A stretch of DNA of 64,000 bases from Nereocystis luetkeana (Eukaryota; Sar; Phaeophyceae; Laminariales; Laminariaceae), in assembly GCA_031213475.1 (NCBI GenBank), contig JARUPZ010000026.1:3366823-3430822 (forward strand), written 5' to 3'. Position 1 is the first letter of the stretch. Every line of letters begins with the position of its first letter. A model generated the notes under the pieces. That model had not been told where the DNA came from. It saw only the letters and a program-made list of their open reading frames with translations, and searched no databases. Position numbers and translations under genes: made by a program. Positions 10,701-63,734 of the stretch are shown piece by piece.

Positions 10701-13700
10701 GTGCGATTGATTCTACATGGGGTTGCACTTTCCATTTTTGTTTCTTTAAAGTAACTTTTTTTTCTTTCGGGTGAGGATATGTGTAATACAGCTAGCTCCT
10801 GAATCGCTTCCACCGACAACAACTTTTTGGACTGCACTGCCATATTGGGGACAAAGCGCTTGGAATTAGAGTGATATTTAGGCTGCTGTACAGCGCAGTA
10901 CCATTTGTGTCAAGCAAGCAAGGGGCCTCAGAAGCATCCGGTGCACCCCAACCAAACACACGCGTCTTTCATCGGAGTTCAACAATAAAATGCGCAACCG
11001 GTCTGTTCCCCTGCGATTACCTACGAGGTTCCAGGCCGGTTCGTGGGTGCTTTTCTCCATGACGCGAAATCGTGTGCTTTTGCCGATGTTGTCGCGCGCG
11101 CACGCCAACTCGCGCTCCGCTTCACCCGCCTGGATTGGTTTGGTCTTCGTCATACCGTTTCTTCTCTTTGTCGAAATTAAACATAGCGCTCTTGCTCTCG
11201 GTGATCGTATTTTCGATACGACACTGACTGTTTCTAACCGTGTTTAGACATTCCGAATACACTTTTGTGGCTCCTATTACGGGGGACCCTAGTTAACAGG
11301 ACCTATGGTGTACATAAAAAACTACCAGGTATACATTTAACCATTTTTACTAACAATATTTGGTCCTGTTAACTATGGCCCCCCGTAATACTATAACGGA
11401 GGACCATAGTAAACAGGACCTACGATAGAGACCAAAACCCATATACTTCACTGTTTTTACTAACAACATTTGGTCCTGTTAACTATGCCCCCCCGTAATA
11501 CTATAACGGAGGACCACAGTAAACAGGACCTACGGTAGAGACAAAAATCCATATACTTCACTGTTTTTACTAACAACATTTGGTCCTGTTAACTATGGCC
11601 CCCCGTAATACTATAACGGAGGACCATAGTAAACAGGACCTACGGTAGAGACAAAAACCCATATACTTCACTGTTTTTACCAACAACATTTGGTCCTGTT
11701 TACTATGGCCCCCCCGTAATACTTGTATCTTGTGTACCCCGAATACATTTTTTTTCGTGACTGCTACTATCTATACACTTCGTGCATGTAACCGAACACA
11801 CCCTTGCAATTTGCTTTTGTTGCCTCTCGGATATGGCTCCCCTGTGCAGCTACAAAGTCCCCGGCCAGTTCGTGGGGGTCCGCCTAGACAGCGGCGGGGA
11901 CGGCGGGGTCGCGGGCTGCCTCGTGGCCGTCTCGATGGAGCCGACCTCCGTACGACAAAGTGACGGGAAAATCCAGGTTTTGGTGACGGAGGAGGCCACG
12001 TTTCGTCTCAAAGGTACTGCAGAGGTGCACCATTTTTTTTTTCTTAGGCTCCTCACTTGCCGAGCTGTATATGTAGATGTGTATCCCAGTGATACCCAAG
12101 AACTGTTTTTTCGAGGAAAATAAATAAACGTGCAACCCGATTTTACCTATTTACGGGAGACCACATTAAATAGGACCTACGGTACACACACAAAAACCTG
12201 TATATTTTGATATTTTTACCAACAATATTTGGTCCTACTTACTATAGTCCCCCGTAATAACTGTCTCATGGCCTACGACTGCTGTAGGCTCATGACACAA
12301 CGAAAATGTTGCAACACAATAATGAGAATTCCGACGATTGGTTTGTGGGATTAAGGATGCCCGCCAGTCGGAAAGGTCGCCTCAGGATCTGTCTTGATAC
12401 ATCTGCATCACAAAGCGGGAATTGACGGTTCGTCTCAGGAATGTGAGGTTGCGTCGAAAAACGGAAAGTTTGGACCACTACGGCTGTGTCTTTGTCGTTT
12501 TTTCGAAGGGTTGGCACTCGAAGCACTTGCATTTTTCCACGACGACGGAAGCGCACCGATCGATGAACATCCGGGACAAAAAAAAAAATCTCACCGGGTT
12601 GCTTGCTCGCTCACGTACACCCGCAAGCATCGATTGAGCCGAACGCATCGCACGTTATTGGTTTACGTAGTCGACCTTGTACGTCAATCTTTCGGACGGA
12701 CGACTTGATTGCCGCGTACTTGCAGGGGACACTCGAGGGCCTGCGGAGGAGGCCAAGGGGCGTTCCTTGGCGGCGCTGGAGGTGGGCGACAAGGTTAGGC
12801 TGAGCGATTTCATGGGGAGAGGGTTTTCCTCGCTGTTCGTAGGCTGGATAGGGCTGCAGTCGGCGCTGCAGGTAAGCCATGAATCCTGAGTGATGTGCAC
12901 GCACTCGCGTCTCCCTCCAGATCCGCAGAGACGCGTGGACTCATTTCTTGCTTCCCATGGTTGATTGAAATATTTCCCCATTTTTTTCAACCCGGGACGA
13001 GTACGCACGCACGCACGCACTCCCTCCCGATTTCGTTTTTCGCGACATCGTTTTTCGACCTAAGCTTGTTCTCATGTTTCTGGTGGGCGTTGGTGTCTGG
13101 AGGGTTGTGTGGCTGCTTCTGAATGTGATGCGTCGTCGCCACGACAGGAGTGTTGCACTGCTGTACAGGCGCGGTCGGGGCACCGCCTTGCACCTCGCCT
13201 CTCTGGTCTTCGTCTCGGAGACTCTCACGGCTGGTTTCCTTCGGCTCAGAAGAGTAAAATACCGCACCCAACCAGCACCCACACCGAGCTTTTGCGCTTA
13301 AAGCTTTCTCCCCCATCAGGTCCCGTCTTTCACAGAGTCTCCGAACTTCCGGGGATGGGCTGAGCCCCTCCCCCCCCCCCGCCCACCCCGGCAGTTATTA
13401 CTATCACGATTTTGAGGAGGCAGGCGCCCCGCGGAGGAGTCAGGTCTGGACCGAAGCAAGAGCTTAGCCGGTACCGTGTCGGGCACCCGCTGCGTTAGGC
13501 GCGATCATTTCACCTGACTGCCGATGATGCGCCTGGTTCAGGAATTAGTGAGGAGGGTAAATGTTAGATGCCCAAAGCCCCGCAGCGATCGTAAACGGTT
13601 GAGAGGGTGAAGAACCACGCCCGGCACTGCGACGGGGGCCGCGACAACTCGATCTGAAGCTGCCCTTTGCGGGGGGAGACATATTGAACATCGTTACGGC

Positions 13701-16700
13701 AAGGACACGGGCGCCCCCCCCTCTGCGTGAGCAAGCCGGTGTACATATTGAGGGTGGGCGCTGTTCAGAGGAAAAATGGGTAGTCGACGAGCGGGGATAG
13801 GGGGACGTTTACAGATGGCTTGAGCTCTCCTTGTGCGAACGTTTTTTTGTTTCTTGGTTTTTTTCTTCCGCAAGGCTTTACCCCTGCAATCACCAGTGCG
13901 CTTCAAAACGTGGTTCAGGTTCAAAAACTGCCGAGTTCTTGCATCGATCCCCTGCCGAAACGTCAATCATTATGCCTCTCTTGACAGGAAAAACGGGATA
14001 TAGTCATAGTGGCGTCGGGCGCCAGAGGGTTAGGTTCCATCAAGCCCGTGCTCGACTGGCCTCCGGTCCAGGCCCACGCTGGGATAAAGCAGGTCAGACG
14101 GTCTCACAATCCACCTACCGTACGCACCACCCGGTGTGATTAGATAACACCCCCCCCCCCCCCCCCTCGGACGAACTTTTAAAGCTGATTTTCTCTCGAC
14201 AACGAGGAGAGCGCCAGAACGCCGATCGACGCGTCTATTTATGGAAATATCTGGACGAGATGTGTTTTCAAGGCCGCCGTTTTCGATCTTCCCCCCCCAC
14301 CCCCCCCCACCCCCCTTCACCACCCGCGTTTGGGGAAAAAGCGACTCTCACCTTCTTCCTAGATGTGTGTTGTGCTGCATGTTGTACATTGCTATAGTAT
14401 TGATAGCATTGGGAGTTGCAATTAGCGGATGCGTGCTGCGATAAATGGATCATACGTAGACCTGTTCAGGCTGAAATATTTTGTGAGTGACGGGGGGTGC
14501 TCCTTAGCCCTTTTAGTACCGCAGTCCCGTTCTGGGGACAAATTGCTTGAAAGTTGACTGGTTTGTCCCCAAAACGGTACCGCAGTTCTGTAAGGGTTAG
14601 ATCCCAAAATCGCCCGAAATATTCGTTGTTTTTGCGGTATCAGTATTTGTACACTTGTTTGGGGCCATGGACGTGTTGATCATCACCTGTTGCCCTTTCA
14701 TTTTTTTCCAAAGGATCGGCGTTTTGGTGAGGTATAGAGCTCCTCAAGTGTGCGTCAGGGGCCGCACCTAGAGTGTCCAAGCCCGAGAAAAATGTGTGAG
14801 TTCAGCCCCAATTCCACGGGGCTACAGTAGGTACATACCGTATCGAATGTTATTGGCCGCGCAAAATAGTACCAAGATTAGTCAAAACAGCTCTCGTTTG
14901 AGTTCTCCACCCGAGCGTTCGATTTCGATCGAGACTCACCGTGGTCGCAGCACAGGTCGGTCGTGCACACATAGGTCGGGTCGAGTCAACATGCCCACGC
15001 GCCCGTGGCAACAGCAGCCGGCCCTTGTTCTGCTTTTGCGACGGGGGCTACGGGTTGAATAGACACATGACACGTATTCTAAGCGTGGACGTGCGGTGAG
15101 CATGACCTTTATTTTTGCCAATCTGCGTAGAGGATGACACTAAAAAACGGGGGGGAAAATCAGGTTTCACACGTTTTTGTTCGAGGAGCCCCGCCGCCAG
15201 AGACAAATGTTTTGGGCTCAAAAGTGCAACACCCGATTGCAACCCCAATAACCCCTGACTGCAACCTCAAGACCTACCGTAGCACTCAAAAGTGCAACAC
15301 CTGATTGCTACCCCAATACTCCCTAAATGCAATCCTAGTACCTACTGTAGCACTTTACAGTGCAAACCTAGTTGCAGCCCCAGTAACCCTACTTGCTCGT
15401 TACCATTTTACAAGGACAATCGTGCCGCATTGGCTGTCGGGGGGGTGTCACCGGTGCGTATTGGCCTGTATCGAGCGGACTTGCTAAAGGGTTCGCCATA
15501 TCAACGGGAACTCTCGTTTGTGTTTGAAACGTTGTTGACGATGTTGCGATCGATGCGCGTACGACTTCGATAGCGGCGGCGGCGGCGGCGGTGGTGGTGG
15601 TGGTGGTGGTGGTGGTGGTGGTGGTGGTGGTGGTGGTGGGAGGGACGGAATCCATGAATGTTGCGGTTGCAGGTTGGACACAACACTGAAGTCGAGGACC
15701 GAGCGTGGAGCTTCCCCCTTTTGGCACCCGAATCTGACTATTTCTAAGTCATTCCCCCCCCAAACGCTACTGTAGCGTGATCCTGACGGGATTATGCTTG
15801 GAGCCGGTACAGCTTAGATGGGTCAAGCCTGGGGTGTGGATGCAGCGCAAAGAGCACAGCCGTCCCGCTCGTCCTGGTTCAGTCTCACTCCTCCTGTACG
15901 CACGACCGCCTCGCCTCTTTCAGCGGGCGTGCGCGATGGGCAGCCGTGCCCCACAGGACGATACTGGTGGCATTGTCCTCTTTCCTATTTTCCGCACGTG
16001 ATGGTGTGGTCTGTTGTCTGTGTTGTCTGGCGCTGCGGTGTGACACAGGCTTGTGAATTTCACCCCAAGAATCGCGCGGAACCAACTAGAAGCCAGAAAC
16101 GTTCCCGGGAAAATGTAGAATCCGGGCCCAGATTGGCGGCCGAGACTGTAACGGAGACCTGGACTTGTATCCGGCCGGCCGGTGCAGTGCCGTTCTTACT
16201 ATCGTTTTCGCGAAATCTACTAGCGGCGTTCATGATTTCCCGGTCCTTTTGCGACGGTGGATCCATATCGTATGTCATTCGTGGTCGCAGCCGTGCGCCG
16301 CCGCGCGACGTTTTCGGAAAACGGCTCATGCCCAAAAAAGCAAGTGGGGAGGGCCATCCTCGAACATTTGTTTCGCTGCAAAATTGATTCAACCCTTGCT
16401 CCAAGCAGTTTGTCCGAGCAAAAGGGGGGGCTGCAGCTCTAATTGGGTTTAGCAGCTGCAACGTTTGGGTGGAGCTTGGGGGTCGCAGGCGGCATGCGAG
16501 GAAATATAGGGTGTTTTATTGACAATTGACGTGAACCGTACGGGTGATCCCGTCTCTAGGCGAGAGAGGCCCTCCCTACGACGAGCACATGTACGTTTTG
16601 AGCCCTTCACGCAGTCTGCTTCTCCGGTGGGTACTATGGATGATACTTCCGTGTTGCACCAATATTATTTGCAGTTTTGTTTTTGTCGATGCAACAATCC

Positions 16701-63409: not shown

Positions 63410-63734
63410 GTTGCTACTGTACGCAGCTCCCGGTTGGGCTGCTGTTTTTTGCTCACGCTGAATGCTACAGTATTATATACCTGGTACAGAACGAGGTACC
63501 AGTTGTTTTTTATTCTACTTTTTTCAGCCAAGCTTGAAGTATGGCGTGGTGGGGAAGGGCGTGTACCCTATACAATTATAATACCAGTCTAGTAACACAC
63601 GTTTCCTTGTGTTTCTTCCAATCGTCGAGGCAAAAATACAGCACGGGACGGCCGCTAAGAAAAGCGGGCGGTAAGAAAGGCAGGCAGAGATTCACACGAA
63701 GTAAACAAAAAAAAGGGGGCGTCATTTTGCTGAC

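Follow-up and report, generated by a model that had tools for sequence, protein, structure and literature searches.

The 64,000-nucleotide stretch of Nereocystis luetkeana DNA analyzed here (the window, from contig JARUPZ010000026.1) contains 18 matches to the nine-base palindromic word TACCWGGTA, where W is A or T, and several of these lie in copies of a miniature inverted-repeat transposable element (MITE) denoted MITE A. We propose that the word is probably the excision footprint, or scar, of a family of cut-and-paste DNA transposons that insert at TA. The matches are arranged along the window as follows.

11323..11331, TACCAGGTA scar in the MITE A copy at 11275-11390 (116 bp = 109 + 7)
33182..33190, TACCTGGTA, pattern match
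33268..33276, TACCAGGTA in the 137-bp MITE A copy at 33212-33348, together with TATTAATA (33299)
35655..35663, TACCAGGTA scar; paralogue sequence AATA-GGACC, with a net gap of 7 in 23/27 alignments
36900..36908, TACCAGGTA scar; paralogue sequence CCATA-GTAAATA, with a net gap of 7 in 4/5 alignments
37228..37236, TACCAGGTA, pattern match
37776..37784, TACCAGGTA, pattern match
38294..38309, TACCAGGTACCTGGTA, two overlapping scars (38294 and 38301), versus a single one in the related copy at 35655
38345..38353, TACCTGGTA scar in a MITE A copy, at the same MITE position as in 11323 and 41253
40375..40383, TACCAGGTA, pattern match
41253..41261, TACCTGGTA scar in the MITE A copy at 41194-41309 (116 bp)
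46402..46410, TACCAGGTA, pattern match
46643..46651, TACCTGGTA; the CCTGGC after it may be the decayed remains of another scar
54323..54331, TACCTGGTA, pattern match
56070..56078, TACCTGGTA, pattern match
61245..61253, TACCAGGTA at the border of a TA microsatellite
63478..63486, TACCTGGTA, pattern match

An earlier, sequence-only reading of the window had given 18 coordinates for the word, all of which were matched, and 100 dinucleotide shuffles of the window yielded a mean of 0.43 and a maximum of 3 occurrences, none reaching 18. The over-representation reported there is real, and its figure of 35-fold becomes ~42-fold over the shuffle mean. Across the 465-Mb genome (1,987 contigs) the count is far above expectation, with 182,395 matches to TACCWGGTA versus 1,744 to the reversed word, or ~105-fold. 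The analysis covers this one genome, of which ~320 kb were read in all; counts given for the sample refer to 309,644 non-N bases, comprising the window, the loci L031-L050 and 16 of the 30 loci L001-L030. As those 16 loci were selected by hits, density was taken from the remaining 264,000 bases (the window and 20 stretches of 10 kb not selected in this way), where 100 matches correspond to 0.38 per kb, and the genome-wide density is 0.39 per kb.

In the sample, TACCWGGTA ranks first among nine-base palindromes, with 130 occurrences (129 unique) versus 2.9 expected from an order-3 Markov model, and the reversed control word occurs once. Two pairs of loci overlap (L024/L027 by 434 bases and L007/L010 by 76), so that one scar (C1:88615) is doubled in this 130 and in the totals of 141 and 33 given below. 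Counts per 10 kb range from 0 to 9 across 25 chunks, with a variance of about twice the mean. They also correlate with TA content (0.59), which lends little support to the idea that mutation bias or slippage creates the word; given the Markov expectation and the single reversed control, we regard that explanation as next to negligible. One-substitution forms of the word sum to 137 in the sample versus 52 for control words, as expected for scars of mixed age. Overlapping tandem scars were found seven times in the sample, and nine stretches with a tandem scar in viral contigs. Two GGTAC-rich clusters, L046:4815-4985 and L046:7770-8370, hold several overlapping or decayed scar-like words. Literature searches with the 9-mer, TACCWGGTA, TACCNGGTA and three tandem strings returned, among the matches listed, no report of such scars.

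Paralogue alignments reveal how the word arises: a site with a single TA becomes TA-CCWGG-TA, the scar standing between two target TAs. A spanning paralogue is present in the sample for 33 of the 141 TACCNGGTA sites, and the modal net difference is exactly 7 bp at 14/33 of these versus 11/323 control TA-N5-TA sites, which bears out the earlier description of the gain as CCWGG plus a second TA. Removing the overlap duplicate leaves 13/32 unique sites; some of the 33 share one repeat, and modal ties were settled by order of appearance. The filled and empty pairs that had been picked out by eye at 35,655 and 36,900 were reproduced by alignment. For a third pair, at 33,268, the automatic comparison returned one paralogue, itself filled, and the empty counterpart ACCTATATATTTCGCTA can be seen immediately before position 45,915.

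Copies of MITE A give the direction of the change. Of the 14 complete copies, eight are bare (109 bp) and two have a single scar (116 bp each); a 137-bp copy combines a CCWGG scar with TATTAATA, and neither is present in the remaining three (111, 113 and 152 bp). The paralogue is empty, with a net gap of 7, in 22/37 alignments at 11323 and 26/39 at 41253; the 7-bp gain in MITE A is thus derived, and not an ancestral segment lost from a few copies. The copies at 11323, 38345, 41253 and L050:7056 have the scar at one common position, probably inherited from a shared ancestor, and the 18 window sites are therefore not all independent events. At 38294 there are two overlapping scars, and one in the related copy at 35655, so that the second insertion probably used the TA created by the first.

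Sharing of this kind raises the question of whether most copies of the word multiplied within repeats that happen to hold it. Besides the MITE A position just described, two to four copies of another repeat share a scar (L029:253, L029:2919, L032:8154 and L027:802). Against this, 14 of the 15 CCWGGTA words listed have mostly unrelated flanks (identity 0.17-0.29 upstream and 0.25-0.42 downstream), the exception being CCTGGTAGGA (0.43 upstream, 0.67 downstream), and the small share of sites with a spanning paralogue also argues against multiplication, which we consider extremely unlikely as the general explanation.

The flanks of the scar carry a target-site logo. Counted outward and compared with background, the preferences lie at +1 (T.42, C.37, A.06), +6 (T.52) and +7 (A.45, T.38), with chi-square values of 90, 104 and 118, respectively; A at +2 and T at +3 are favored less strongly. 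The left flank mirrors the right when sites are oriented by the central W, and ordinary TAs are nearly flat. With a matrix trained on TACCAGGTA, 71 TACCTGGTA sites have flank scores that exceed background by 1.3 s.d. (z 11). The same logo flanks TACCGGTA (16 sites, effect 1.24) and TACCTGATA (10 sites), and because of this match TACCGGTA is probably a 4-bp outcome of the event that leaves CCWGG. The sequence-only reading had noticed TACCGGTA variants at three places; all three exist, two of them displaced by 1 and 4 bases from the positions first given. The variants in the window are:

2137..2144, TACCGGTA, gain of 6 bp in MITE A-like sequence (variant scar of 4 bp)
48943..48950, TACCGGTA, gain of 6 bp in MITE A-like sequence (variant scar of 4 bp)
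60071..60078, TACCGGTA, pattern match
33234 and 36814, TACCTGTA variant

Another word of the form TA-palindrome-TA, TAGGWCCTA, has a CCWGG-like flank score and occurs 26 times in the sample, within MITE A copies in the window; most of these come from one MITE position, so that the copies are not independent.

An internal control is provided by MITE A itself, whose copies have the structure TA-TTACGGGGGACC...CCCGTAA-TA. The excision of a resident MITE A in the manner of Tc1 elements is predicted to leave TATTAATA, and the indel survey of paralogues contains 6-bp gains (TTAA+TA) of TATTAATA. Representative features are:

39378..39385, TATTAATA, 6-bp gain versus paralogue; predicted scar of MITE A
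45858..45966, complete scar-free MITE A copy, 109 bp, TA-TTACGGGGGACC...CCCGTAA-TA
47557..47665, complete scar-free MITE A copy, 109 bp

Further window occurrences of TATTAATA include 33299 and 5203, with seven more. The 74 TATTAATA sites in the sample (~7 to 9 expected by chance) outnumber the 47 exact resident MITE A ends (about two dozen copies), and genome-wide there are 93,112 versus 10,689 reversed words (8.7-fold). The flanks of the 47 ends (G.49, T.72, A.70) and of the 74 TATTAATA sites (G.50, T.58, A.64) agree, whereas on the CCWGG logo the TATTAATA flanks fall below background (z -3.1); a TA family and its scar can therefore be matched by target logo in this genome. TAC microsatellites also score high on the TATTAATA logo, and TACWGTA shares it in part. 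A second candidate, MITE B (TTAACCCTTTTAG...), was considered as another TT-ended TA family and dropped, as only two of its ends adjoin TA. The Sleeping Beauty scar reads TAC(A/T)GTA, with the central A/T free. The corresponding word TACWGTA occurs 124 times versus 37 for its reverse in the sample (window positions 334, 3978 and 7783, and 21 more), with a G-T flank like that of MITE A and 5-bp CTGTA gains at L014:2141 and L027:2344.

These observations bear on the possibility that TACCWGGTA is a functional site under selection, such as a binding site, a replication origin or a chromatin mark, and that its presence in MITE copies is incidental. The strong enrichment, the palindromic form and the wide spread of the word would all suit such a site, which nevertheless seems to us very unlikely: (i) repeats show exact 7-bp gains at TA, overlapping tandems and decay forms, and (ii) the flank logo lies outside the word and resembles target choice, TATTAATA behaving alike with another logo.

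Based on the 7-bp gains, the symmetric logo, the TACCGGTA variants and the MITE A control, an excision footprint of a TA-targeting element, as the sequence-only reading had suggested, is the best fit to the data, although the source element is unproven. The transposon would insert at TA with an outward preference for Y, A and T, then for T and A/T at +6 and +7, and duplicate the TA; on its departure about five terminal bases (CCWGG) would remain between both TAs. By analogy with known systems, each cut would leave a 3' overhang, CCAGG or CCTGG. Such an overhang could pair with its twin at 4/5 positions, and repair of the central A.A or T.T mismatch would then yield A or T; an overhang of 4 nt, with one base filled in, would lead to the same product. 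Since each jump can add a scar without a net gain in copies, a low-copy family that stayed active for long would leave far more scars than elements, and scars could accumulate to ~180,000 while the resident copies are too few to appear in 310 kb.

The proposed reaction resembles that of Sleeping Beauty and mariner elements in its TA target, its TA duplication, a scar derived from the element tips and the repair of 3' overhangs by non-homologous end joining, as far as the available text of PMC7827188 and PMC8151067 describes them. There, the first nick falls three bases inside the element to give 3-nt 3' overhangs and a footprint equal to the overhang (PMC7827188, in part), and Sleeping Beauty excision leaves CAG (PMC8151067, in part). 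The scar thus has 3 bp in Sleeping Beauty and 5 bp (CCWGG) here, and the evidence in those sources comes from assays, whereas the present genome alone contains ~180,000 copies in excess of the control. In the pogo group, the accessible part of PMC9976928 gives footprints of 0-4 bp for Passer. The likeness of MITE A and TATTAATA to the proposed system lies in the TA insertion, the scar made of two end bases and their complement between two TAs, and the matching target logo; the difference lies in another logo (TAC-TA-GTA) and another scar, and in the abundance of residents, with 47 exact ends in 310 kb.

Several results weigh against the excision reading. The 5-bp footprint exceeds the 4 bp or less reported, in the portions of the sources at hand, for Sleeping Beauty, mariner and Passer, although a 4-bp minority, TACCGGTA, exists. 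At 19 of the 33 sites with a spanning paralogue the modal difference is other than 7 (0 in 7, 6 in 3, assorted in 9), some of the modal-0 sites being paralogues that share the scar. High scores on the CCWGG logo are not exclusive to scars and occur too at TA microsatellites (TATATA and longer) and at the MITE word TAGGACCTA. The 310-kb sample yielded no resident element with CCWGG ends, sought as TA-CCWGG termini. The 140 TACCWGG words there that lack a following TA have no common continuation, their continuations forming only groups of 2 to 4 within repeats that share similar upstream sequence. A TA-anchored scan of the sample for terminal families placed MITE A at the top and gave, among the matches listed, no clear family starting with CC; the weak CC-starting group CCACTCTGTC among them has n = 4, with identities of 0.33 upstream and 0.53 downstream. 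In the genome, DDE_3, the catalytic profile of Tc1-type transposases, had no match at E <= 0.001 among 30 first-look candidates, a search that a split or diverged gene could escape. Three further points concern the one complete TA-flanked element that was read, a pogo-like transposon on contig C34: its ends are CCGT/CCGG and not CCWGG; it has no match in the sample as a BLAST query; and on the CCWGG logo its insertion site reaches only the 84th percentile, where the median scar is at the 94th, and on the TATTAATA logo the 89th. Of the Tc1/mariner-type assignment made in the sequence-only reading, the TA target and TA duplication hold, and the lead from the transposase searches is a pogo-like element.

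The scarcity of residents, with no clear family of CCWGG ends in 310 kb despite 130 scars (129 unique), would also suit a transposase or nuclease that writes a 7-bp palindrome at TA directly, in an abortive or scar-only reaction, so that an element is never resident. We know of no reaction that writes CCWGG, and MITE A indicates that insertion followed by excision yields palindromic TA scars in this genome; direct writing appears to us quite unlikely.

Searches for a transposase gave 28 genome matches to the pogo-type profile DDE_1, two of which, on contigs C34 and C35, were read. The first belongs to the following element:

L061:104-3606 (G000:C34:4444203-4447705), pogo-like transposon, 3.5 kb, TA-flanked

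Its terminal inverted repeats (TIRs) start CCGTAATCATGCGG and CCGGAATCATGCGG, and its arms of 28 bp, including the TA, are 96% complementary. The transposase matches DDE_1 (PF03184) at 53.2 bits (cut-off 22); the helix-turn-helix profiles BrkDBD (15.2 bits) and HTH_Tnp_Tc5 (12.2 bits) both stay below their cut-offs. It has 86 database relatives, of which all named ones are brown-algal (Ectocarpus, Pylaiella, Ascophyllum, Scytosiphon, Laminaria and Hapterophycus), and the named homologues of the second transposase gene are from Ectocarpus. No relative of the C34 transposase was confirmed in viral contigs. The element lies within the short-repeat array (unit spacing 47-53 bp) of what appears to be a second, inverted copy of itself, and since the arms are 100% identical over 997 bp, their sequence marks it as recent.

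A genome search with the TIR gave at least 100 places with 0 or 1 mismatch; among the matches listed, 62 form 31 facing pairs and 38 are unpaired, and 18 of the 31 pairs span 530-590 bp end to end. Only the rows with 0-1 mismatch were used, as counts with 3 mismatches (475 + 454 versus 696 + 710 for the control) are dominated by chance. The relatives of the C34 element thus appear to be a low-copy family, mostly of a non-autonomous size of ~570 bp. Most of the TIR matches listed are one base off TACCNNAATCATGCGGAGG, and one mismatch could convert TACCNNAATC into TACCWGGATC, the end sought.

With the pogo group (Passer, Tigger and Fot1) the C34 element has in common DDE_1, the TA duplication and short TIRs; the system differs in that Passer leaves 0-4 bp (PMC9976928, in part), and with tips of CCGT/CCGG the link to CCWGG is a lead only. 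In its favor, a TA-flanked pogo-like element with ends that start with CC does exist in this genome, and we consider it somewhat less likely than not that its family is the CCWGG source. The second DDE_1 gene (L051, G000:C35:5112140), which shares 94% identity with a database protein (source lgn) and has four TACCWGGTA in and around it, was rejected as the source: it is apparently intron-bearing, no TIR was found, and it looks like a host gene. Judged from its sequence, it is possibly a domesticated pogo-type gene.

A more speculative possibility, which we think unlikely, is that nearly all insertions of a brown-algal TA family with a stagger of 5 nt are removed again, perhaps in every generation by a host-controlled pogo-type transposase, in the manner of the internal eliminated sequences (IESs) of ciliates. 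The ~180,000 scars would then be kept with hardly any elements, and the second TA of each scar, lying in a favored setting, would feed the next insertion. Removal of IESs in Paramecium leaves one TA and no scar. The likeness, to the extent that the sources consulted cover it, lies in very many TA-bounded excisions by transposase-derived enzymes, and the difference is that nothing in the data from this genome shows programmed excision.

Two other features of the window were recorded. A long array with a period of ~11 bp and CCACCATGG-like units (families D2, D7, D10 and D14) occupies 24779-28419, and a reverse transcriptase fragment (RVT_1, E 1.7e-14), probably a relic of a long interspersed nuclear element, lies on the minus strand at 6262-6915.

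Finally, the activity of cut-and-paste elements is usually judged by their resident copies, and here it is the scars that hold the record: taken together, the two types of scar outnumber their reversed-word controls by ~263,000, each with its own target logo. If TACCWGGTA is indeed an excision footprint, a 5-bp scar would imply a stagger that is unusual among TA-inserting families, and a word that resembles a conserved regulatory motif would be explained. Excisions in a lineage could be counted over the long term, and one genome would offer very many natural repair outcomes.

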